This document shows, in pieces, positions 1,300-11,828 of a stretch of 12,569 nt of DNA (positions are counted from its first letter, which is position 1; each line of letters opens with the position of its first letter). Below the pieces are notes generated by a model. The model made no database searches. It was not told the origin of the DNA and worked only from the letters and a program-made list of their open reading frames with translations. The stretch covers positions 1-12,569 of the forward strand of contig RZZF01000020.1 in assembly GCA_009929975.1 (NCBI GenBank). The letters are read 5' to 3'. Both the position numbers and the translations under genes were made by a program. Source of the stretch: Clostridia bacterium. Its GTDB lineage: Bacteria > Bacillota > Clostridia > Saccharofermentanales > UBA5734.

Positions 1300-2712
1300 T
1301 TAACAGTCAAGTTCTGCCCATGCGGCGCGAATCGCGCCCATCAGGTACAAAGATCCAAACGCGCAGACCGGCCACTGATTCTGCTCTGCCAGACGGGACG
1401 CCTGGCGAACCGCGTCTTTCGGGTCTTCAGCAACCTGTACGATATCTTTCATATTATAGCCTGAGCCGCCTGTATTAGGCAATTGCCGCAATTGTTGTTC
1501 AACCGCATCCGCCAGCTGGACAGCCGGCAGCGCACGCGGGTTGTCCGGGGCGGTGCAGATCACAGCCGACACCTGGTAGGCCGCAAAGGGGCTGATAACA
1601 GCAGCCAGCATGTCAACCACATCTTTATCTGCCAGCATGCCTGCAACCAGGATCAGCGGCTGTCCGGGCAACAGGCGGTCGAGTGTCCGGCGCAGTGCCA
1701 GGCAGCTTTGTCCGTTATGGGCACCATCGATCAGAACCGGCGGCTGACTGCGCAGCCGTTCCATCCGGGCCGGCCAGCGGGCCGCCGCGACGCCTATGAC
1801 TGCGGCCTTGCGGTCAGCCAGACCGAGATCAAGACAGCAGCGAACCGCAAGCTGCGCGTTCATCGGCTGGAAGACCGCCAGCATACTGGTTGCCAGTTCC
1901 AGTTTCAGTGATGTGATCTGGAAACGCTGCCCCGACCAGTCATAGTTGAGCGGCAGAATCGTCTCCCAACTGACCAGGTGCAAAGTGGAATTTTCCTGCC
2001 GGCAGCGCGTGGTGATGACCTGAAGCGCGGCAGCCTGATCATCGGCAGACAGATCAAGATCGCGCGGATCGTAAAGATAGACCGGGACACCCGGTTTGAT
2101 GATACCGGCCTTTTCCCCTGCGATGTCCCTGATTGTCGGTCCCAGCCGGTCCATATGGTCAAAGCCGAGTGCCGTGATCAGGCAGGCCAGTGGCTGACTG
2201 ATGATATTCGTTGAGTCGAAGCGGCCGCCAAGACCGGTTTCCAGAACCACAATCTGACAATCCCGATCGTGGAAGTAGCAAAAAGTCATCGCCGTCAGCA
2301 GCTCAAATTCCGTCGGATGCTCCAGTCCCTCGGCGAGCATCTGATCGACACAGCGCTTGATCACTTCCATCAGGCGGGCAAACTCAGCCGGAGCGATTTC
2401 ACCGTGGGTTTCATCAGCCTGCCAGGCTTGCATCCCGGATAGACCATCCAGAACACGGATCCGCTCAGTCAGCCGATTAATATAGGGGGAGGTAAACAAC
2501 CCGGTCCGATAACCGGCAGCCGCCAGGATATTGGCGGTATAAACGCTGACGGATCCTTTGCCGTTGGTCCCGGCCACATGCAGGCAGCGCAGCTGCTCCT
2601 GCGGATTTCCCAACAGGTCCATCAGCCGCTGCATCCGCTGCAGACCGAGCCGGATGCCGAAGCGCAAAGATTCCGACAGATATTGCCGTGCTTCCTGAAA
2701 TGTCATGCTCAT
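1300..2712 (-). CDS. folC: Bifunctional folylpolyglutamate synthase / dihydrofolate synthase
   Basis: This 470-residue cytoplasmic ATP-dependent ligase adds glutamate to dihydropteroate and/or to folate poly-gamma-glutamate chains, which retains folates in the cell. The Mur-ligase fold signatures are all present: P-loop HVAGTNGKGSV at 45-55; the second FolC signature ETGLGGRFDSTNI at 158-170; GFDHMDRLGPTIRDIAGEKAGIIK-type motif at about 183-206; and the C-terminal-domain motif WPARMERL followed by LIDGAHN. The length is slightly above the usual 420-440 residues, partly from a short insert around 89-106. The start ATG overlaps the stop of the GtrA-family gene in an ATGA (4 bases), implying translational coupling; an in-frame ATG two codons later (MSM) is an alternative start. 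The TPR gene follows after 10 bases. Family assignment is secure; whether it has both activities or only the polyglutamylating one cannot be read from sequence. Confidence 0.95.
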   Translation of the reverse strand: MSMTFQEARQYLSESLRFGIRLGLQRMQRLMDLLGNPQEQLRCLHVAGTNGKGSVSVYTANILAAAGYRTGLFTSPYINRLTERIRVLDGLSGMQAWQADETHGEIAPAEFARLMEVIKRCVDQMLAEGLEHPTEFELLTAMTFCYFHDRDCQIVVLETGLGGRFDSTNIISQPLACLITALGFDHMDRLGPTIRDIAGEKAGIIKPGVPVYLYDPRDLDLSADDQAAALQVITTRCRQENSTLHLVSWETILPLNYDWSGQRFQITSLKLELATSMLAVFQPMNAQLAVRCCLDLGLADRKAAVIGVAAARWPARMERLRSQPPVLIDGAHNGQSCLALRRTLDRLLPGQPLILVAGMLADKDVVDMLAAVISPFAAYQVSAVICTAPDNPRALPAVQLADAVEQQLRQLPNTGGSGYNMKDIVQVAEDPKDAVRQASRLAEQNQWPVCAFGSLYLMGAIRAAWAELDC

Positions 2713-3224
2713 TGTGAGCCTCCCATGTCCGGCTCTTTGCGATGCTGCTGAACGAAGACAAAAAACTTGCTGATCAGGTAATTACCAACAATGACGAAGA
2801 TCTGGGAAAGCAGCTTGCTGATCAGCAGCTCCCAGCGCCAGATGTGAATCGTCTGGGTCAGACCGATCACATCGTATAGAAATGCCATCGCGCCATACTC
2901 AAAAACCAAAGAGACAATCACGCGTGACGCGAAAAAGCGAACCATTTCCTGCAAAACCGGCGCGTTGGAGCGAAAGACCAGGAGGCGGTTGGCGACATAG
3001 GCAAACAGGATGGAAGCCGGAATCGCGACCGCGTTCGACATCCACCAGAAGCGATAGCCGACGACGCGGCTGAGCAATGAAAAAACAGCGAGATTGACCA
3101 GCGTCGTCATCCCACCCACGATCAGATACGTGATGACTTCCCGATTGAAAACAAGGCGAAGCCAATGGCTCCATCGCGAAGAATCACCAGGCGCCGGAAA
3201 CTTCGGCTGGATATTGTCCTCCAT
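2709..3224 (-). CDS. GtrA-family multipass membrane protein
   Basis: A 171-residue protein with four predicted membrane helices at about 31-53, 60-82, 95-120 and 133-157. GtrA-family hallmarks are visible: the YLIVGGMTTLVNLAVF-type first helix, ANRLLVF at 78-84 and the terminal NYLISKFFVF at 148-157. GtrA-like proteins are generally thought to help move polyprenyl-phosphate-linked sugars across the membrane for decoration of surface polymers; the substrate here is not predictable. I chose the ATG at 3224. It lies one base after the TGA of the cohesin gene and has a GGGTGG ribosome site that overlaps the end of that gene. A longer reading from 3383 would run backwards through the upstream gene's acidic tail and has a non-GtrA N-terminus. 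The gene is coupled on both sides: a 1-base gap upstream and a 4-base overlap with folC downstream. Confidence 0.9.
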   Translation of the reverse strand: MEDNIQPKFPAPGDSSRWSHWLRLVFNREVITYLIVGGMTTLVNLAVFSLLSRVVGYRFWWMSNAVAIPASILFAYVANRLLVFRSNAPVLQEMVRFFASRVIVSLVFEYGAMAFLYDVIGLTQTIHIWRWELLISKLLSQIFVIVGNYLISKFFVFVQQHRKEPDMGGSQ

Positions 3225-3225
3225 G

Positions 3226-4899
3226 TCAGTCCACCCTTTTGACCGGTGGAATTTTCGGCAATTGATCGAGCAGCGGATCTGACGGGCCCTGATCGTCAGG
3301 TCCCTGATCAAAACCATCAAAGTGGTCATCATCACCATCGTAGGGATCATCATCATGCGGGCCCTGGCGCCGGGCGCGGACAACCAGCCAGATCACCAGT
3401 CCGATCAGCACAATGGAGAGCACCGCCAGAATAATCGCGATTAACATCCAGGGCAGGCGGTCAACCGGTTGTTCCGGCGTTGTGACCGGTGAATCCGTTG
3501 GCTCTGTTACGACGCCGGCATCTGGTGTCGCCAGATCGGTCAGCGGATATGGATTGATCCGGTTGAAGGCATCGTTGTAGACATAGAATCCGACATTACC
3601 GAGCTGATCCATCAGGTAAACCAGATAGACATCACGATCGGCGTCCGGATACAAAGCGGGGTCCTGCTGCCAGGCGGTCAGATCTTCATTGTTATAGATC
3701 AGGTTCTTCTCTATAAAACCTGCCGGGACAGCGGTATCATCCGGCTTCTGCATCCAGATATAACTGCTGACCGGGACGGTCATCGGCAGATACGGATAAA
3801 CCAGCTGATTGGTTTCATCATAGATATGATAGCCTGTGTAGCCCTTCTCGTCCGTCAGATAGAGCATGATCAGTTCGCCGTGTTTTGACTCAAATCCGAC
3901 GACGGTCTGATCGCCGATTGTCACGAGCGTCCGGTAAAATCCTTCCGGTACGATGAATCCAAGCGGCAGATCCATGACAACATAACGTGAGCCGTCCGGC
4001 AGATCGATGGCCGCTGGAGGGACCGGCGTCGGGCTTGGTGTCGGACTTGGTGTCGGCGTTGGTGATGGCGTTGGAGTTGGGGTCGCTTCTGGCGTCGGCG
4101 ACGGGGTTGGTGTCGGTGACGGCGTTGGTGTCGGTGCTGGTTTGATGGCCGTCACTGTATATGTTCGTTTTTCACCATTTTCAGCCGTAACGACTATTTC
4201 AATCTTGGTATTTCCACTGCCGAGAGAAATTGTGCCGCCACCAGCTACACTTGCTTTGTCATCATCTTTTTGAGCTGTTACAGTTAATTTATCTAGATCT
4301 GATGGAACACGCACCTCATAGTTCAATCGTTCTGAAGAAAAGTCTGGACTCAAATTTCCTGCAGATAACGAAATACTGCTGAGTCTATTATTGTCAGAGC
4401 GAACAACCGGAGCTTGAACTGTTATGTTAACCGATGAGCCAAAAGTCATCGACACTTCGTTTAAGTTCATATCTGCAAAGGCTTCTGCTCTCTCAATTTT
4501 AATGTTGCCAGTACCGCTTGTATTCTTCGTTTTGAAATATACACCAACTAAATATGTTTGACCTGATATGGGGATTTCTCCGCCATAACTTGTTATAGTA
4601 ATCAAATTACCGGTTTGTGAAGCCTCAAATGATCCAGTTCCTGCTAGTTGTTCTGATTTTTGATATGTAAATAGGGTATCATCATACGAAACAACAATTG
4701 GACCAAATCCTGACAAGGTAGGTGCTCGATCAACAGCTAGAACGACACGAAAGTCCTGATTTTGTTCAAGTGTTGTGCTTCGAGTTAGTATAACTAATGA
4801 CCCTTCAGAATTACTGGTTGCTTGAGCAGGTGCAACCAAAAAATTAAACAATATGGACATAATAAATACTAATACTACAAGCCTAGATTTATTTATCAT
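3226..4899 (-). CDS. Secreted, membrane-anchored cohesin / cadherin-like protein (putative scaffold for the adjacent dockerin enzyme)
   Basis: A 557-residue surface protein. From the chosen ATG it has a signal peptide ending near APAQA (residue 27). A type I cohesin-like domain follows at about 33-163: VVSYDDTLF matches the family's YDPxxL strand, and ERAEAFADMNLNEVSMTFGSS matches the conserved AFADN...TTF segment. A bacterial cadherin-like beta-sandwich (pfam12733 type) lies at about 169-253, then a PTPTPSPTP linker at about 254-295. Next come two copies of an unnamed module, each VPxGF ... LxYLxDxxGxxGxYxY ... PYP, at about 305-375 and 380-455. A membrane helix at about 483-508 is followed by RARRQG and an Asp-rich tail. 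Known cohesins bind dockerins with high affinity, and the gene immediately upstream (17-base gap) ends in a dockerin. Odd: residues up to the linker are AT-rich DNA and the rest is GC-rich, so the gene looks chimeric. The domain calls are firm; the binding partnership is inferred. Confidence 0.85.
   Translation of the reverse strand: MINKSRLVVLVFIMSILFNFLVAPAQATSNSEGSLVILTRSTTLEQNQDFRVVLAVDRAPTLSGFGPIVVSYDDTLFTYQKSEQLAGTGSFEASQTGNLITITSYGGEIPISGQTYLVGVYFKTKNTSGTGNIKIERAEAFADMNLNEVSMTFGSSVNITVQAPVVRSDNNRLSSISLSAGNLSPDFSSERLNYEVRVPSDLDKLTVTAQKDDDKASVAGGGTISLGSGNTKIEIVVTAENGEKRTYTVTAIKPAPTPTPSPTPTPSPTPEATPTPTPSPTPTPSPTPSPTPVPPAAIDLPDGSRYVVMDLPLGFIVPEGFYRTLVTIGDQTVVGFESKHGELIMLYLTDEKGYTGYHIYDETNQLVYPYLPMTVPVSSYIWMQKPDDTAVPAGFIEKNLIYNNEDLTAWQQDPALYPDADRDVYLVYLMDQLGNVGFYVYNDAFNRINPYPLTDLATPDAGVVTEPTDSPVTTPEQPVDRLPWMLIAIILAVLSIVLIGLVIWLVVRARRQGPHDDDPYDGDDDHFDGFDQGPDDQGPSDPLLDQLPKIPPVKRVD
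4015..4140 (-). repeat. PTPSPTP linker repeat in the cohesin gene, also the composition breakpoint
   Basis: Imperfect short repeats encode about 42 residues of Thr-Pro and Ser-Pro. On the plus strand they read as runs of ggtgtcggcgttgg-type units. The 60 bases at 4081-4140 are 42/60 G+C; the next 60 bases (4141-4200), outside the repeat, are 24/60. The change from GC-rich to AT-rich DNA therefore coincides with the end of this repeat. Confidence 0.8.
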
Positions 4900-4907
4900 C
4901 AGGTATA

Positions 4908-4912
4908 CCCTC
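4908..4912 (-). promoter_or_regulatory. Ribosome binding site that fixes the cohesin gene start
   Basis: GAGGG lies 8 bases upstream of the ATG at 4899. A possible in-frame TTG at 4914 overlaps this site and has no ribosome site of its own, and the ATG start places the signal peptide correctly (MINKSRLVVLVF...). I therefore use 4899 rather than 4914. Confidence 0.65.
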
Positions 4913-4916
4913 AATT

Positions 4917-7256
4917 CTATCTCTTTTGATCTATCGTCATTTTCTGCTGTATATGTCGAAGTGTTAACGTTAGATCTATTGTGTTTACCTTGCCATCACC
5001 ATTGCTGTCAGATGCCGCAATCGATGCATTTGATAATTCCATACGGCCTTGTATATATCGAAGTGCAGCAGTTAGATCAATTGTGTTAATTTTTCCATCA
5101 CCATTTATGTCCCCATATATGATGATTTCATATATCTTTAGTGTTTGTCCGTCTTTCCCAATATTAGCTGTAACTCCAGACCCAACAACATCACTACAGA
5201 TTGATCCATCAGGATTGTGTAAAGTAATGCTATATGTTGGATCACAAGTAAGATTCGCCAATATATTATCAGCTCGATTATTCTCTCCACTGATATCAAT
5301 ACCGGTAATTTTATTCTCTTCGATCAAATAGGTATCACTGACAATTTCAGCAGGAGGAGGGCTGGGTGTTACTGTTGGTACTGGGGTCGGTGACACAGCC
5401 GGTGATGGTGCCACTGTTGGGGTCGGTGACACAGTCGGTGATGGTGTCACTATGGGGGTCGGTGAAACAGTAGGTGATGGAATGATGTTGCTATTGTCGC
5501 GTCGTACAATATTCAATTTATATACACGTTGATTGCCGTTTTCAGAAACAACTTCAATATTGATATTATTATTTCCAACACTTAGGTTGACCGTACGACT
5601 TCTCTGTACGCTCGCCTTATCTGATACTGGCACAACGTCAATAACCGCTGATGTTACATTATTCTCAACGATGAAAGAATATCCGCTCGCCGTATCCGGA
5701 ACAAAGTTAGGAGTAACATCTTTTTGATTTACTTTCATTGACTTAAGCCAATTATTTGGATTGCCGCTATTCAATGGGGCTGGGCAGGGAGATGAAGGCA
5801 TGTTGTTATAGACCGGAATAATAAATAATTTCGATTCGTCAAGCATTTCCATACTGTCATAAGCTTCATGTAAATCTCTTGACTCTTGATATGGAGCTTG
5901 CACATTTGTCATGTACTGATGCCAAAACAACTCACCATCTGAATTATCAACATCGAATTTTTGAGTGTACAGTGTATTTTGTCCTACAATAATATAACTT
6001 GATCCGATATATTTTGCCCCACCAACAATTGATTTGAGACGATCATTCCATGGAATCAGCAGTCGATCATCCGTAGATGTCTGTTCAATTTTTCTCCCTG
6101 GACCAAATTTTGCAAATTGTAAACCGTACATTACTGCTTCAAGTGGACCGGTTGAATCGAAAGCACCAATGTTGTAGAAATTGAAATGTCCATCATAGTC
6201 AGTTGTTATATCATCCTCAGAGTAAGGTATATTTTTGCGAATTAAATAGTTAATCAAATCTTGTGAAAACGTCCCTGTGACTGAGGGAGATGGGGAAAGT
6301 CCTGAGCTGACCTCTAGTTTTGACCTTGATGCAAGATGATATGGACTAACTTCACTCTCTTTTGCTGCTACCATAAAAGCTTCGGAAAACATCATGCTAG
6401 CCGGTTGACCTGATGACTCATTCAAATAGGTAAAAGAAGTATTTGCCATGAATGAATTGTTGAGAATTTTTTCCACGCCTTGTTGGCTATGAACAGACTC
6501 TTCCTCATCATATGACAAAGACTCGAACTGAAAAATTCGTATCGGGCTTAAAAAATTCCTTGGATCCATATAAAACTCAATTGTTGACCGACTAGCAGCA
6601 TACCAGTTGGTATTATGAAAATAAACCCACTTATTTGTAGCCCAATTGTATGCGAACGAGTCAGTAGATCTCCAATTTTCATTGATGCCGTACCATAGCA
6701 AACTACGACCAGCCACATTTTGATTGTTGATAACATTTGACCAATCTAAATTGGTGTGGAGTGCTCTATAAGTCCATTGTGGATATACTTTATTCAATGC
6801 ACGAAGATAAACACGATAACTCTCAGGAAAACCTTGCTCATCCAACGCTAACTCAAATTCTTCGTTTATTCCTTCTGGATATAATTCGACTAGGGCAGAA
6901 TGGATATACCCATCTTTGGGATTTCCAGCCTGATCAAAATAGTTTAGTTTATACCAAATATCACTCGCATAGGTATTGAGATATTCTCCCTTTACAGAAG
7001 CAATAACCTGCACGATATGGCCTCTTGGCAGAGATGTAATGACACTTGAAGTTGTTGAGGGTAGAGCTCGAACATTTGCACTTGTATTGACATTGATCCA
7101 CCCTAATCGATCAAGTTCTGTATCAGCATTAACATAATTATTCGACGAAGAAAAAAAACCGAATTGCAAAAATATGCTAACAAATAGCAAACCAACTAAA
7201 GTAAAAGCAAAAATAGAAAGATATCGCTTTTTCTGTACACAAAAGATTCTTGACAC
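4917..7256 (-). CDS. Secreted SH3b-glucosaminidase with cadherin-like domain and C-terminal type I dockerin
   Basis: A 779-residue secreted peptidoglycan hydrolase, probably an endo-beta-N-acetylglucosaminidase (GH73-like) cleaving the wall glycan. Order of domains: signal peptide/hydrophobic segment at about 13-37, with possible cleavage near VNA at 44; SH3b at about 51-127 (WINVNTSANVRALPSTTSSV); glucosaminidase at about 134-487, with the family motifs DPRNFLSPIRIFQFE, SPYHLASRSKLEVSSG, FNFYNIGAF, GGAKYIGSSYIIVGQNTLY and QKFDV; E314 in SKLE is the likely catalytic acid by family position. A cadherin-like sandwich follows at about 501-585, a PSPTVSPTP linker at about 593-637, a beta-rich pre-dockerin segment at about 640-713, and a dockerin at about 715-775 with two calcium loops (D716-D727, D750-D761). 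The start is a GTG with GGGGGA about 5 bases upstream. The gene is uniformly AT-rich, unlike the paralogous gene upstream. The dockerin implies docking to a cohesin, and the next gene encodes one. Confidence 0.9.
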   Translation of the reverse strand: MSRIFCVQKKRYLSIFAFTLVGLLFVSIFLQFGFFSSSNNYVNADTELDRLGWINVNTSANVRALPSTTSSVITSLPRGHIVQVIASVKGEYLNTYASDIWYKLNYFDQAGNPKDGYIHSALVELYPEGINEEFELALDEQGFPESYRVYLRALNKVYPQWTYRALHTNLDWSNVINNQNVAGRSLLWYGINENWRSTDSFAYNWATNKWVYFHNTNWYAASRSTIEFYMDPRNFLSPIRIFQFESLSYDEEESVHSQQGVEKILNNSFMANTSFTYLNESSGQPASMMFSEAFMVAAKESEVSPYHLASRSKLEVSSGLSPSPSVTGTFSQDLINYLIRKNIPYSEDDITTDYDGHFNFYNIGAFDSTGPLEAVMYGLQFAKFGPGRKIEQTSTDDRLLIPWNDRLKSIVGGAKYIGSSYIIVGQNTLYTQKFDVDNSDGELFWHQYMTNVQAPYQESRDLHEAYDSMEMLDESKLFIIPVYNNMPSSPCPAPLNSGNPNNWLKSMKVNQKDVTPNFVPDTASGYSFIVENNVTSAVIDVVPVSDKASVQRSRTVNLSVGNNNINIEVVSENGNQRVYKLNIVRRDNSNIIPSPTVSPTPIVTPSPTVSPTPTVAPSPAVSPTPVPTVTPSPPPAEIVSDTYLIEENKITGIDISGENNRADNILANLTCDPTYSITLHNPDGSICSDVVGSGVTANIGKDGQTLKIYEIIIYGDINGDGKINTIDLTAALRYIQGRMELSNASIAASDSNGDGKVNTIDLTLTLRHIQQKMTIDQKR
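5383..5480 (-). repeat. 36-base tandem repeat encoding the PSPTVSPTP linker
   Basis: Three successive units begin with ggggtcggtga on the plus strand at 5383, 5419 and 5455, an exact 36-base spacing. The first two are nearly identical and the third decays after about 26 bases. Each unit encodes 12 residues of the PSP-x-VSPTP-xVx pattern, so the linker has grown by in-frame unit duplication. Confidence 0.8.
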
Positions 7257-7286
7257 AGCGATCCCCCATAATTTTATACAGTGAAA

Positions 7287-7315
7287 ATTATACAGAGTTA
7301 TCTTATCACAAAAAC
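7287..7315 (-). promoter_or_regulatory. Possible sigma-A-type promoter for the dockerin enzyme and downstream genes
   Basis: The only sizeable gap in the window, 7257-7377 (121 bases, AT-rich), holds a perfect TATAAT at 7287-7292 on the minus strand, 31 bases before the GTG start. With a 17-base spacer the -35 position reads GTTTTT, a weak match; a better TTGTGA at 7306-7311 is only 13 bases away, too close. The surroundings are AT-rich, so a chance TATAAT is quite possible. I see no convincing terminator hairpin after the upstream gene. Confidence 0.3.
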
Positions 7316-7377
7316 ATAACCATCATATTACAAGCAGTTTATGTGTTAACTTTTCTCTTTCCCTATTCTACTTGACA

Positions 7378-10002
7378 TCAAGGCCATGGCTGGGGCTTGT
7401 CCGGCATGCCCTCAAAGATCGGAATCCGGAAAACAAATGGCTGGTCAAGCAGATCGGTATCCCGATAAGCCTGCCAGGTGCGTCGGCCCTCAGCCCAGGC
7501 CATCTGAATGTTCTGGGCATACTGCCGCGCGAACAGTCCTTGGCTGCCGATCAGATCAAATTTTTGCAGATACAGGGTATCCTGCCCGACCTGAACATAG
7601 CGTTCAGAAATCCACAGCGCGCCGCCGATCATCGCACGCTGCGGTGTATTCCAGGGAATCAGCCAGGCTGCCTCCTGCTCGCTGATCTCACCCTGATCCG
7701 GATTCACCCCGAACATGGCGTAGCGGGCTCCGTTGATCCGGGCTCCGTCGGGCACCTCCGGGTTCGGCGTTGATCCGATATTATAAAAGTTGTAAATGTC
7801 CGGATAGCCGGACAGGCTGCCGGTCGCCAGAGGTGATTCCGCCTGGCGGCCCATCTCCTGGATCACCCTGGCCGCAAGAAAGAACGGGCTGATATCAGCA
7901 CGCCGGCCGGCCAGGACCAGCAGCGGGGCATAATCAATACCCTGGCGATTGCCGCTTTCCATGAACGTGCCGCGCAGCATGGTTTCCACGGCGTCAGTAT
8001 GGTGTACTTCAGATGAAAATGTCATTTTCTCAAACTGGAAAATATTGACAGGATCGAGAAAATTCCGCGGATCAGCGAAGTGGCTGATGACGGGAACCGC
8101 TGCTGCCCGCCAGCTGACACCGTCATAGACGGGACTGCCGGAACGGATCCAGTGGGCCGGACTGTTGCCGGAATCGACCAGACTGCGGTCAGCGGTGGCC
8201 TGAGCCTTGATGAAATCGTTCCAGTCAATCTGAGGTCGGAAGGCTTCAAACTGCCAGGCCGGATACTGCAGATAGGAATACCACAGCCAGTTATGATATC
8301 CGGCCGGAAATTGAACCAGGGTCTGCTGGAACTCACCGTTATGGGGCATGCGCAGAATGGACAGATGATAATGTCCGACGGTTCCGTCGAATCCCGTTAC
8401 CTGAAAGGTGATGTCGTTGACTGACCGGGCCAGCCTCAGCTGATTTTGCTGAACATCGTAATCCCGCTGGCTGGTTGTCTGTGTGATGATCACATCCGCC
8501 GCGCTTCCCTCCATCGCCTGCCAGTCAAAGTCAAGGGTATCAACGGTTTCAGGAACGACCAGGGCGTAACGGTCATCAGTCATTTGAAAGTAGGGCACAA
8601 AATCAACGGTGTCGCCATTGAGATCGCTCAGACTCAGGTGAACCAGACGCCCTGACGGATTCTGCCAGTGATAGGCTTCAGCCGGCTGCCAGCTGCTTTG
8701 TCCGCTCTCATCCGTAATCAGCAATTCATCGTCCCGAACCTCCATCACCGCGACAAACCGGCCCGGCTGGTCCACCGGCTCGGCGACGCCCAGCGCGGGG
8801 AGCAGCGAAAAGGTGCGCGGGCCTGAAGACTGTGACTCAATAGCCGTCGCCCGGACATAAAAAGCGGAACCGGTTTCCTCATCACGCGAAGCGGCTGCTT
8901 CGGCCGGTTCAGGCTGCAGGACTCGTGGCCGGTAGCGCAGGGCCGTCGGCCAGTCAGGATGGCTTTCCGTATCGGCCAGCCCGTTTCGGTAGGCATCAAA
9001 TAATTCAAGACGGATCGGCTGTTCGGCATTGAACAGATTCAGCAGCGCCGCGTCCGCAATCGGTGGCAGGCGGTACCAGCTGGTCGCTTCGGCGGTATCC
9101 GGCAGACGCTCATGGCGGACTTGGGCGGCAGACAGGGGCAGGACAACCGGCACCTCATACGTTTCCAGTGTCTGCCAGTAGCCGCGCCCGTCACCGGTCA
9201 GAACCATGACAGCCAGCTGGTAGTTTCCGGTCGAATGGGCATCGGTATTCCATTCCAGAGTGTGCTGATTGAGCAGACTGGGATCATTCACGGATGGCCG
9301 TCGGCTTATCTGCAGCCGATCATTGGCATACAGGCGCAGACTGGTCTGGCTGCCGGTCAGGCGCAGCTCAAGCTGTACTGGCAGGCGGCCGACAATTTCG
9401 CTGCCAGACACCGGCCGGTTCTCGGCAACATAGACAGTTCGCAAACGGGTCGGCGGGGATGGCAGTGGAATCGATCCGGAATACCCGTTGTCATCCAGCA
9501 GCTGATTGATCAGGGCGATACGACTGCCGGTTTCCTGCAGGCTTGCCTGAGCGGTTTCCTTTGCACTGCTTCCCATATCCTGCTGGCTGAGCAGACCATA
9601 CAGATCCTCAATGAACTGCTCATCACCGCGATTTTGCCGGAGGTAATCCGGTGAGATAAACAGACGAAGCAGAAAATCGGCCGGAGCAAGGCGTCCGGTC
9701 GTCATAAGATCATGCCAGTAAGCCGGCAGGTTTCGACCGGCCAGCAGACCGGCTTCGCTGATCAGATGATCCGCCTGGCCTGCTTCGATTGACGCCTCTG
9801 TGCGAAATCCACCGGCGGCAACCGCTTCCAGCCGGCGTTGCGACCGCCAGCTCAGGCTGAGGGTCAAAATAATACCCAGACAGATGATTCCCAGCAGAAT
9901 CAGTGCCAGAACGCCAGCTTGATAATCCGGATGGCGCGGATCGGAGTCAGCTGCCTCCGGCCGCTTCTGTTCAGAGATATCCTGAAAACGTGGTTCACTC
10001 AT
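7378..10002 (-). CDS. Membrane-anchored N-acetylglucosaminidase with DUF4214-like and cadherin-like domains
   Basis: An 874-residue type II membrane protein. A 29-residue charged N-terminus precedes one helix at about 30-50 (VLALILLGIICLGIILTLSL), so the rest should lie outside. Residues about 75-175 resemble DUF4214 (LPAYWHDLMTTGRLAPADF, then FISPDYLRQNRGDEQFIEDLY). About 185-285 looks like an Ig-type beta domain; about 286-465 is unassigned. A cadherin-like sandwich at about 468-551 ends in GHYHLSILR. The C-terminal glucosaminidase (about 556-874) carries the same ordered motifs as the dockerin enzyme: DPRNFLDPVNIFQFE, SPFFLAARVIQEMG with likely catalytic E716, YNFYNIGS, IPWNTPQRAMIGGALWI and VGQDTLYLQKFD. 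It probably cuts peptidoglycan glycan strands while tethered to the membrane. The start ATG overlaps the yfbR stop in an ATGA and has AGGAG 6 bases upstream. It is GC-rich and has no dockerin. Product family is secure; the DUF4214 and Ig calls are by eye. Confidence 0.88.
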   Translation of the reverse strand: MSEPRFQDISEQKRPEAADSDPRHPDYQAGVLALILLGIICLGIILTLSLSWRSQRRLEAVAAGGFRTEASIEAGQADHLISEAGLLAGRNLPAYWHDLMTTGRLAPADFLLRLFISPDYLRQNRGDEQFIEDLYGLLSQQDMGSSAKETAQASLQETGSRIALINQLLDDNGYSGSIPLPSPPTRLRTVYVAENRPVSGSEIVGRLPVQLELRLTGSQTSLRLYANDRLQISRRPSVNDPSLLNQHTLEWNTDAHSTGNYQLAVMVLTGDGRGYWQTLETYEVPVVLPLSAAQVRHERLPDTAEATSWYRLPPIADAALLNLFNAEQPIRLELFDAYRNGLADTESHPDWPTALRYRPRVLQPEPAEAAASRDEETGSAFYVRATAIESQSSGPRTFSLLPALGVAEPVDQPGRFVAVMEVRDDELLITDESGQSSWQPAEAYHWQNPSGRLVHLSLSDLNGDTVDFVPYFQMTDDRYALVVPETVDTLDFDWQAMEGSAADVIITQTTSQRDYDVQQNQLRLARSVNDITFQVTGFDGTVGHYHLSILRMPHNGEFQQTLVQFPAGYHNWLWYSYLQYPAWQFEAFRPQIDWNDFIKAQATADRSLVDSGNSPAHWIRSGSPVYDGVSWRAAAVPVISHFADPRNFLDPVNIFQFEKMTFSSEVHHTDAVETMLRGTFMESGNRQGIDYAPLLVLAGRRADISPFFLAARVIQEMGRQAESPLATGSLSGYPDIYNFYNIGSTPNPEVPDGARINGARYAMFGVNPDQGEISEQEAAWLIPWNTPQRAMIGGALWISERYVQVGQDTLYLQKFDLIGSQGLFARQYAQNIQMAWAEGRRTWQAYRDTDLLDQPFVFRIPIFEGMPDKPQPWP

Positions 10003-10649
10003 GTCGGCTCCTGTGGCAGAGGCTGATGATTCGAACCGTCTGACTGCAGCTCATCCAGCGACAACCAGTAGGACGGCAGGAAATGATCGACAAAATAGCG
10101 GACTTCAGGCAGTTCGGCCGCCAGTTGTTCCACCAGCGCCTGCGTCGCCGCTTCCGCCTGCAGAAACTCCGTATTGCCGGCTTTCTTTTCCTCGATGCAC
10201 TTGATATAGGCGGTCAGCTTATCCGCCGCTTTGACGAGAAGCGCCGCTTCGCGCAGGCCGGGGTCGCTGAGGTCGGGAGACATGGCGGCAGACCAGGCCG
10301 GCCGCAGCGGTTCAGGCAGCATATTGAGCAGACGCTGGATCGCGACAGATTCCACGGCCTGATAAGCCTCGCGGATACGCGGGTTGAAATACTTGACCGG
10401 TGTCGGCAGATCCCCGGTCAAAATCTCACTGGCATCATGATAAATCGCCAGCAGGAGGACATCGGCATTGTCGACAGCGGGCCGTTCCTCAAAACCGGGC
10501 AGCCGACGTATTTCGGCCAGGGCATGGGCAATCACGGCGACTTGCAGCGAATGCTCCTCAATGTTTTCCGTTTCGGTATTGCGCATCAGACTCCAGCGCC
10601 TGATATAGCGCATGCGATGGATCATCGCGAAAAAATGAGCGGATTCCAT
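9999..10649 (-). CDS. yfbR: 5'-deoxynucleotidase, YfbR-type HD-domain protein
   Basis: A 216-residue cytoplasmic metal-dependent phosphohydrolase. YfbR of E. coli removes phosphate from deoxyribonucleoside 5'-monophosphates, and the resemblance is close along the whole length: N-terminal SHFF/AHFF block, RRWSLMRNTETENIEEHSLQ, YHDASEILTGDLPTPVKYFN, KAADKLTAYIKCIEEKKAGN-type segment and the C-terminal PSYWLSLDE. The HD metal ligands are H33, H71-D72 and D143; R18 and W19, which contact substrate in the E. coli enzyme, are kept, as are E75 and D80. The start ATG has GGGAGG about 5 bases upstream, 14 bases after dgt. The end overlaps the next gene by 4 bases. It probably acts with the neighbouring dNTPase in deoxynucleotide turnover. 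The C-terminal 15 or so residues past the YfbR core are polar and unassigned. Confidence 0.92.
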   Translation of the reverse strand: MESAHFFAMIHRMRYIRRWSLMRNTETENIEEHSLQVAVIAHALAEIRRLPGFEERPAVDNADVLLLAIYHDASEILTGDLPTPVKYFNPRIREAYQAVESVAIQRLLNMLPEPLRPAWSAAMSPDLSDPGLREAALLVKAADKLTAYIKCIEEKKAGNTEFLQAEAATQALVEQLAAELPEVRYFVDHFLPSYWLSLDELQSDGSNHQPLPQEPT

Positions 10650-10663
10650 GCTACCTCCCAGGT

Positions 10664-11803
10664 TTAGAACCAGTAGATGTCTTCAAAGCATTTGCTGGCA
10701 TATGAATCGGACATGCCGGCGATATAGTCGATCACCGGCTGCAGCGCATGATCGGATTCGGGCCAGACACGTTCCTGCAGATAATGCCAGAAAGCGCGGT
10801 AGACCCTGTGATCACTGTTAGCAAGACGTTCAGGATCATGGGTCGCCTGCACCAGGGCGTCAAACAGTCCTTCAATCACATTGCTGACCATTTTTTCATA
10901 GCGGTCGATTTTATCAGAACGATAGATGCGTTCCACATTGTCACGCAGCAGTTCCTCCATGCTTTCACCGCGTTCCTGGCTGAGCATGATCTGGTCCCGC
11001 CCGATGCTGTTTTCAATGATATCGGTGACCAGGGTGTTGATGATCTGTCCATTGGTACGGCCAAGCGATGATTGAATCGCGCGGGGCACATCATCAAATT
11101 CCATCAGTCCGGCCCGGACGGCATCTTCGATATCACGGCCGACATAGGCGACTTTATCGGCGATTCTCACCACACAGCCTTCAAGGGTCACCGGGAATCC
11201 ATGCGTGAGCGCGGTCTGCTCAATGGCATCATCGACCTTGTTCCGGTCCGGGACAAGAAGGAATTCTCCATACGTTTCGCCGCAATGGCTGGCAATGCCG
11301 TCCCGCACCTCGAAAGTCAGATTCAGGCCCGGTCCGCCGGGTCGTGCCGCCAGGCGGTCAACAACGCGCAGGCTGTGCAGCTCGTGCTGGAAACGCAGTC
11401 CGGTTCCGCTCTCTTCCAGGCAGCGGTTCAGGGTGGCCTCACCGCTGTGGCCGAACGGGGTGTGGCCCAGGTCATGTCCCAGGGCAATCGCTTCAATCAG
11501 ATCGGTATTGAGACTGAGGGCACGCCCGATGGTCTTGGCGATGTAATTGACATAGATCACATGTTCCATCCGGGTGCAGATATGATCATTCTGAGGATCA
11601 AAGAATACCTGGGTCTTATGGCGCAGACGCCGGAAATCAAGCGAATAGATAATACGGCCGGTATCGCGTTCATAGACCGTCCGGACATCACAATGCACCT
11701 CGGCCTTCAGGCGGCCCCGGCTGAGACGGCTGTGCATGGCAAAGGGGCTAAGTGCTTCTTCCTGTTTTTCCTTGAGCAGCCGCGGCAAGATTTGATTCGG
11801 CAT
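10664..11803 (-). CDS. dgt: Deoxynucleoside triphosphate triphosphohydrolase (dGTPase family, HD domain)
   Basis: About 379 residues. Family members hydrolyse dGTP or other dNTPs to the deoxynucleoside and tripolyphosphate. Counting from the first ATG at 11806, visible motifs are YERDTGRIIYSLDFRRLRHKTQVF at 45-68, H82 in TRMEHVIYV, the HD motif GHDLGHTPFGHSGE at 110-123 (H111, D112) and RIADKVAYVGRDIED at 214-228 with D217 as the fourth ligand. The length fits the shorter Gram-positive class rather than the 505-residue E. coli Dgt. The usual THTxEV around the first histidine is replaced by EHVIYV, a modest variation. Two consecutive ATGs occur at 11806 and 11803. AGGAG at 11810-11814 is 3 bases from the first and 6 from the second, so I prefer the second. 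The gene lies about 25 bases after the DUF362-type gene and 14 before yfbR. The preferred nucleotide cannot be inferred. Confidence 0.92.
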   Translation of the reverse strand: MPNQILPRLLKEKQEEALSPFAMHSRLSRGRLKAEVHCDVRTVYERDTGRIIYSLDFRRLRHKTQVFFDPQNDHICTRMEHVIYVNYIAKTIGRALSLNTDLIEAIALGHDLGHTPFGHSGEATLNRCLEESGTGLRFQHELHSLRVVDRLAARPGGPGLNLTFEVRDGIASHCGETYGEFLLVPDRNKVDDAIEQTALTHGFPVTLEGCVVRIADKVAYVGRDIEDAVRAGLMEFDDVPRAIQSSLGRTNGQIINTLVTDIIENSIGRDQIMLSQERGESMEELLRDNVERIYRSDKIDRYEKMVSNVIEGLFDALVQATHDPERLANSDHRVYRAFWHYLQERVWPESDHALQPVIDYIAGMSDSYASKCFEDIYWF

Positions 11804-11828
11804 CATCGTCTCCTTTCCAGCGAGTCGG

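Follow-up and report, generated by a model that had tools for sequence, protein, structure and literature searches.

Two adjacent minus-strand genes in the 12,569-nucleotide stretch of DNA analysed here (the window, which is one contig of a 2.18 Mb Clostridia genome in 479 contigs, 86% complete) probably encode a dedicated, calcium-dependent, non-cellulosomal complex of two proteins that remodels the cell's own wall, in which a glucosaminidase ending in a dockerin is tethered at the membrane by a protein bearing a cohesin; binding, calcium dependence, catalysis and place in the cell are the parts that we infer. The computed support comprises the domain assignments, the cohesin fold, signals of membrane topology, the recurring adjacency of the genes, a near one-to-one content of the two modules per genome, and a dockerin that is intact, its two faces matching each other. 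Few protein contacts are known to be tighter than those of cohesin-dockerin pairs, the study of which has centred on the breakdown of plant fibre.

Architecture of the gene pair

The pair belongs to an operon-like run on the minus strand, on which all window features given below are located. The run begins with a protein containing HD and HD_assoc domains (10664..11806; Pfam), presumably dGTPase-like, followed by a YfbR-like 5'-deoxynucleotidase (9999..10649; PF12917, 232.6 bits) and a paralogous glucosaminidase of 874 aa that lacks a dockerin (7378..10002), identified from an HMM match, the tree, and an NCBIfam SagB score of 27 bits that lies under the cut-off. The dockerin and cohesin genes come next, which confirms the adjacency described in the original prediction, and are followed by a GtrA/DPMS transmembrane protein (2709..3224; PF04138, 67.4 bits), a Mur-ligase-type protein (1300..2712; Pfam) that we take to be FolC-like, and a last protein that matches TPR profiles, at best slightly under the Pfam cut-off. 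The open reading frame (ORF) of the membrane-anchored cohesin protein (3226..4914) can be read from TTG 4914; the likelier start is ATG 4899, with GAGGG upstream, 17 bases past the stop of the dockerin gene, and the ATG of GtrA is found one base past the anchor stop. Promoter and terminator scans returned chance level only.

The dockerin-bearing gene (4917..7256; 779 aa) encodes, after an N-terminal hydrophobic segment that hydropathy marks as a signal peptide or an anchor, a bacterial SH3 domain (SH3_3; 6888..7082; Pfam, 40 bits), a SagB/autolysin-type N-acetylglucosaminidase domain (residues ~215-485; 5802..6614) assigned from orthologue profile matches, a Cadherin-like domain (PF12733; 5499..5717; Pfam, 30.7 bits), a pre-dockerin module, and a type I dockerin (4962..5117). 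The dockerin contains two F-hand loops, DINGDGKINTID and DSNGDGKVNTID, with D-N-D-N-D in both calcium loops and NTIDLT in both repeats; it scores 53.2 bits against PF00404 in the genome search, 48.9 bits in the whole protein and 54.1 bits as a module, and passes the curated cut-off of 22.9. For the catalytic part, no Pfam match was obtained, and the enzyme reaches 33.5 bits (E 2.5e-8) against NCBIfam SagB, far under the curated cut-off of 425. A profile of 18 orthologues of the enzyme matches 6u0o (5.8e-21) and 6fxp (8.7e-21), which we take to be SagB structures, autolysin E 4pi7 (1.3e-20), and many solved dockerins; a profile built from six sequences and limited to the catalytic part concurs with the SagB/autolysin match (best 3e-18). 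Since these structures are matched while the SagB score stays under its cut-off, the enzyme is, judged by its sequence, a relative of the SagB/autolysin glucosaminidases and not SagB itself, and it would be expected to cleave the glycan strands of peptidoglycan.

The anchor begins with a cohesin domain (residues ~34-170; 4405..4815), which is recognized by PF00963, by a structure model with a fold match, and by a profile match to solved cohesins. PF00963 gave no match in the whole-genome search, on the full-length anchor, or on residues 28-262 (a 235-residue piece); the reading of these scans as "no cohesin" was overturned by the isolated domain (residues 28-173), which at 27.3 bits passes the curated cut-off of 24.1, by the family profile, and by the structure model of the domain, which takes the cohesin jelly-roll fold. 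A significant cohesin match, the absence of which had been named as a refutation, therefore exists, though on the trimmed domain only, and the domain assignments made originally for both proteins stand. Downstream of the cohesin are a second Cadherin-like domain (PF12733, residues 178-256; 4147..4383; Pfam, 44 bits), a Pro/Thr-rich linker recognized in the sequence (4015..4146), and a domain termed domain X (residues 304-461; 3532..4005), a tandem beta repeat with a unit of ~75 residues that is modelled as all-beta with high confidence. Searches with domain X gave no match in Pfam and none to a PDB fold, and PDB sequences matched it at E 0.86 at best, which does not in itself prove a new fold. 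The protein closes with a transmembrane helix (residues ~488-512; 3379..3453), RARR and a short tail, and hydropathy thereby upholds the single-helix, C-terminal anchor that had been proposed.

The cytoplasmic end of the anchor (window 3226-3260) is conserved among same-family relatives as PP-x-I-K/R-R-I/V-D (alignment A2) and is a possible contact site within the cell. Outside the gene pair studied, P0012, P0016 and P0027 combine cohesin-like and Cadherin-like domains with a hydrophobic segment seen by eye at the C-terminus.

Recurrence of the pair across Clostridia

In the window genome, PF00404 finds one place, on the glucosaminidase; the cohesin family profile, of which the window itself is part, matches one place, the anchor gene, and the whole-anchor profile likewise one place. 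These counts refer to an 86%-complete genome, in which PF00963 alone overlooked even the window cohesin. The crowd of other cohesins that the original prediction set as a possible refutation was not found in this genome, and neither was a multi-cohesin scaffoldin with several dockerin enzymes. Cellulosome membership was rejected for the window genome on the basis of its one dockerin and one cohesin-profile match.

Across the order, PF00404 detects a dockerin in 38 of 58 genomes and exactly one in 30 of these 38. The single dockerin gene adjoins a cohesin in 27 of the 30 genomes, three of these neighbours (G027, G047, G055) being recognized by the iterated HMM alone; two lie at contig ends, and one (G046/L111) adjoins a protein without a cohesin match. 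Taken with the single matches in the window genome, this recurrence bears out the claim of a dedicated pair. The L111 dockerin protein (5523-9325) scores higher against Dockerin_1 (61.8 bits) than any other in the order; domain X is present in its neighbour, but the N-terminal domain of the latter has neither a cohesin nor a Pfam match, and the neighbour is possibly a replaced or diverged receptor.

A glucosaminidase-motif scan of one genome per species, not selected for cohesin, supplied its best 80 loci (more exist), which are labelled mostly Lachnospiraceae, with the rest assigned to Ruminococcus, Pseudoflavonifractor, Eubacterium, Oscillospiraceae and uncultured Clostridia. Among these 80, a cohesin ORF directly follows the dockerin-bearing glucosaminidase in 33 of 40 cases. 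For three of the other seven (Ruminococcus bicirculans L178 and its relatives L161 and L193), a divergent PF00963 cohesin lies within ~0.6 kb. When the window and 40 loci of the order, the latter selected by dockerin or cohesin matches, are added to the best 80, adjacency amounts to 57/67 with a median gap of 19 bases. Duplicate loci (L118, L167, L168) were removed before counting, and near-copies, e.g., L187/L191 and L179/L190 (one of the latter labelled Muribaculaceae, probably mislabelled), were retained; ORFs were chosen by length, which failed in the GC-rich loci L080, L085, L089, L090 and L096, and some were recovered by coordinates. The cohesin HMM was grown over four rounds from 24 PF00963-positive domains, with drift possible; PF00963 confirmed 18/46, 15/23 and 20/28 of its members at E 0.01, and the family profile served as a further check.

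The HMM of domain X gives full two-repeat matches in most dockerin-type anchors and partial matches in most dockerin-less Lachnospiraceae. Domain X was found in 25 of 291 genomes sampled across the class, and 18 of these loci were inspected; outside the order, a dockerin ORF is directly upstream in 12/12 loci (10 glucosaminidases and 2 SpoIID), of which L206 coincides with L155 of the motif set. SpoIID is a peptidoglycan-cutting lytic transglycosylase. The two SpoIID loci, L207 (4616-6745) and L208 (10068-12191), come from one genus, and their SpoIID-SH3_3-dockerin proteins each adjoin two cohesin/domain-X genes. Because SpoIID cuts peptidoglycan, the enzyme appears to have been swapped in this genus with its substrate class unchanged. 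The proposal of a wall hydrolase as the dockerin partner is accordingly supported twice, by the SagB-like profile matches and by SpoIID.

Other proteins occupy the same position at two further loci: a subtilase with List_Bact repeats and a dockerin precedes a truncated cohesin ORF at L082 (4523-6874; G005:C99), and a List_Bact-repeat dockerin protein precedes a cohesin/Cadherin-like protein at L088 (5617-8467), so that wall hydrolases are the commonest dockerin partner of cohesin neighbours here, not the sole one. In family f4 (L100, L102, L104, L107, L110, L112, L116), the cohesin protein is short; domain X is carried by a separate downstream gene in L102, L104, L107 and L110, and the f4 anchor therefore seems split in two. 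The HD protein, the nucleotidase and the Mur-ligase-type protein are recurring neighbours of the pair: many f1 and f3 loci have YfbR-like genes on the upstream side and genes like GtrA and FolC on the downstream side, an arrangement that is also seen in f2 without a dockerin and partly in f4, as judged by eye from ORF starts, the Pfam check of neighbour genes covering the window only.

Dockerin faces and competing explanations

A repeat-parsing pattern handled 57 of 77 dockerins (20 were not parsed), and 54 were retained after duplicates and one unrelated giant ORF had been dropped. In these 54, repeats 1 and 2 agree at positions 10, 11, 14, 17, 18 and 21 at a rate of 78-89% within a protein versus 10-22% between proteins; a clear excess of agreement is found at positions 9, 13 and 20 too, and little or none at positions 2, 4, 6, 8, 16 and 19. 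Positions 10, 11, 17 and 18, which are named as the recognition residues of the dockerin in the available portion of PMC4081043, jointly agree at 0.792 versus 0.159 when shuffled, with 0/2000 shuffles as high. The control positions also beat all shuffles (other positions, 0.519 versus 0.265; calcium ligands, 0.837 versus 0.670), as would be expected of duplicated repeats in related proteins, and the contrast lies in the size of the excess. At the sequence level, such a pattern would be expected of a dockerin with two working binding faces and a code that varies from species to species; the agreement does not identify the cohesin that is bound.

Co-divergence of the recognition sites with the cohesin, corrected for the glucosaminidase, is suggestive at most. 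It reaches 0.108 over 57 pairs (17/500 shuffles as high), with 0.275 for other dockerin positions; over the 39 pairs in which domain X is present as well, the values are 0.346 for the recognition sites and 0.275 for the other positions (0/500 for each), and against domain X they are 0.205 (1/500) and 0.280 (0/500), respectively. The test is weak or unspecific, and over the 57 pairs it does not distinguish the recognition sites from other positions.

These faces bear on an explanation that we regard as rather unlikely, namely that the role of the cohesin is mainly independent of the dockerin: the cohesin would be an envelope beta-sandwich with some other contact to the glucosaminidase (e.g., through the Cadherin-like domains or domain X), and the dockerin would be an optional strengthener in some lineages. 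Such a role would suit the loci at which the dockerin is missing. Of 44 glucosaminidase ORFs without a dockerin, 29 have a cohesin ORF directly after them (the others comprise six that precede a second glucosaminidase, five at contig ends and four with a different neighbour), and of the 50 genomes searched, all 17 without a PF00404 match keep a cohesin ORF beside a dockerin-less glucosaminidase according to the iterated HMM, four of the 17 also by whole-genome PF00963. Moreover, when 23 cohesins from dockerin-less loci are combined in a profile, the match to solved cohesins persists (E 5.8e-8), and 15 of the 23 match PF00963 at E 0.01 or better. Because the cohesin gene persists in this manner, it may have a different ligand in genomes without a PF00404 match, and the interpretation originally put forward is upheld in part: its domains, dedication, hydrolase and anchor find support, and the persistence of the cohesin beside dockerin-less glucosaminidases counts against it. 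Where a dockerin is present, however, the agreement between its faces is strongest at the recognition positions, which vary from species to species, and in f2, a sister family mostly without a dockerin, the profile of dockerin-paired cohesins matched 0/10 genomes. On a glucosaminidase tree of 126 rows, the dockerin requires 7 changes compared with a shuffled mean of 39.5 (0/500 as low); this quick tree has an unsure root and several long branches, and contig ends cut 2 of its 50 dockerin-less rows, but the gathering of those rows in a few clades is best read as a small number of dockerin losses. Family f2 would itself be a natural case of such loss. At its six loci (L198-L203), there is only a dockerin-less glucosaminidase paralogue, set beside a domain-X protein in a similar neighbourhood; three of the six domain-X proteins give a weak cohesin HMM match and three give none, and the segment in the cohesin position is still cohesin-like by eye.

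The dedicated, membrane-tethered complex can also be set against two explanations that involve partners other than the neighbour. It is very improbable that the pair is part of a larger extracellular multi-enzyme complex of the cellulosome or "lyticome" type, directed against polysaccharides or other cells, with the neighbour as one of several partners: dockerin-containing wall hydrolases are linked with cellulosomes in the accessible part of PMC6403190, and dockerin-rich exceptions occur among the 50 genomes searched (60 PF00404 matches in R. albus KH2T6, and 11 and 18 in two others), but the window genome has its one dockerin and one cohesin-profile match, most relatives with a dockerin have exactly one, and the anchor is single-cohesin. 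Hardly credible is an incidental adjacency, in which each module has its partner elsewhere, the dockerin an undetected cohesin and the cohesin another dockerin; the assembly lacks 14% of the genome and divergent cohesins can escape searches, yet the pairing recurs over many Clostridia families, in differing neighbourhoods, and with SpoIID.

Proposed mechanism and relation to known systems

In the tethered complex as proposed, the SH3-glucosaminidase would be secreted with the type I dockerin at its end, and the anchor would present one cohesin on a stalk of Cadherin-like domain, proline linker and domain X over the C-terminal transmembrane helix. The dockerin would clasp the cohesin, so that the enzyme would be kept at the membrane's outer face at a height fixed by the stalk, from which it may cut nascent or inner-layer glycan strands, as SagB held by SpdC. 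Against this reading, the enzyme's own N-terminal hydrophobic segment might anchor it without a partner.

By analogy, SagB-SpdC may be the closest functional parallel, as it likewise joins a glucosaminidase to a membrane partner, and the enzyme profile matches 6fxp and 6u0o, presumably SagB. In Staphylococcus aureus, a membrane protein interacts with the glucosaminidase that frees nascent peptidoglycan from its membrane anchor, as stated in the available text of PMC12272431. There, SpdC is described as integral to the membrane and as a member of the CAAX protease family, whereas the neighbour protein here has a cohesin, domain X and one C-terminal transmembrane helix, and no Pfam match to the CAAX protease family was found in this protein. 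The type I cohesin-dockerin systems of cellulosomes (e.g., 1ohz, 2vn6) differ in other respects: here there is one cohesin, one dockerin, a transmembrane anchor, and a wall hydrolase in place of cellulases, and unlike in cellulosomes, no multi-cohesin scaffoldin was found by profile search of the 86%-complete genome. Similarly, the non-cellulosomal cohesins of Clostridium perfringens (NagJ/GH84C, 2w1n and 2jh2; GH33, 2vo8) are located on glycoside hydrolases according to the entry titles, whereas the window cohesin is on a single-helix anchor beside one enzyme gene.

The novelty that had been claimed is reduced in part by known components. Single-cohesin "nonSLH-anchoring" scaffoldins with a C-terminal transmembrane helix are reported for H. 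luporum, C. cibarium (Coh2) and Lachnoclostridium sp. MSJ-17, and the partners of the first two are called unclear, in the accessible portion of PMC11557425; compared by description, they share the single cohesin and the C-terminal helix with the window anchor, and that portion mentions neither a neighbouring glucosaminidase nor domain X. Dockerin-containing, cellulosome-linked cell-wall hydrolases, for which a "lyticome" was proposed (excerpt of PMC6403190), and a GH73 row within a dockerin/CBM37 table for R. albus (excerpt of PMC4081043) represent the same pairing of dockerin and peptidoglycan hydrolase as the window enzyme; they are described as cellulosome-related, and a dedicated neighbouring cohesin anchor is absent from the excerpted descriptions. 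Loci of R. albus KH2T6 and R. bicirculans among the best 80 motif loci encode relatives of the window enzyme. A description of the pair itself was not found in searches of the open-licence literature, and Peer 2009, on non-cellulosomal cohesins, may already list parts.

A broader and, in our estimation, unlikely proposal is that the cohesin-dockerin module in Clostridia is chiefly a wall-maintenance clasp, class-wide and one-to-one, by which a domain-X anchor retains a SagB-like or SpoIID peptidoglycan hydrolase in a role like that of SagB-SpdC, with cellulosomes as a later, multiplied use. The dockerin codes, which number in the tens and are specific to species, each come with a cohesin neighbour and would supply orthogonal pairs for engineering. 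The pair, if true, could explain transmembrane-anchored single-cohesin proteins with unclear partners and would make the retention of a glucosaminidase at the membrane of gut Clostridia directly testable. Found in many gut and digester Clostridia, the pair suggests that the clasp of the cellulosome also holds the cell's own wall enzyme at the membrane, and, if true, conservation of such a one-to-one pair with a wall hydrolase would mean that the module serves a housekeeping function in many Clostridia of the gut.
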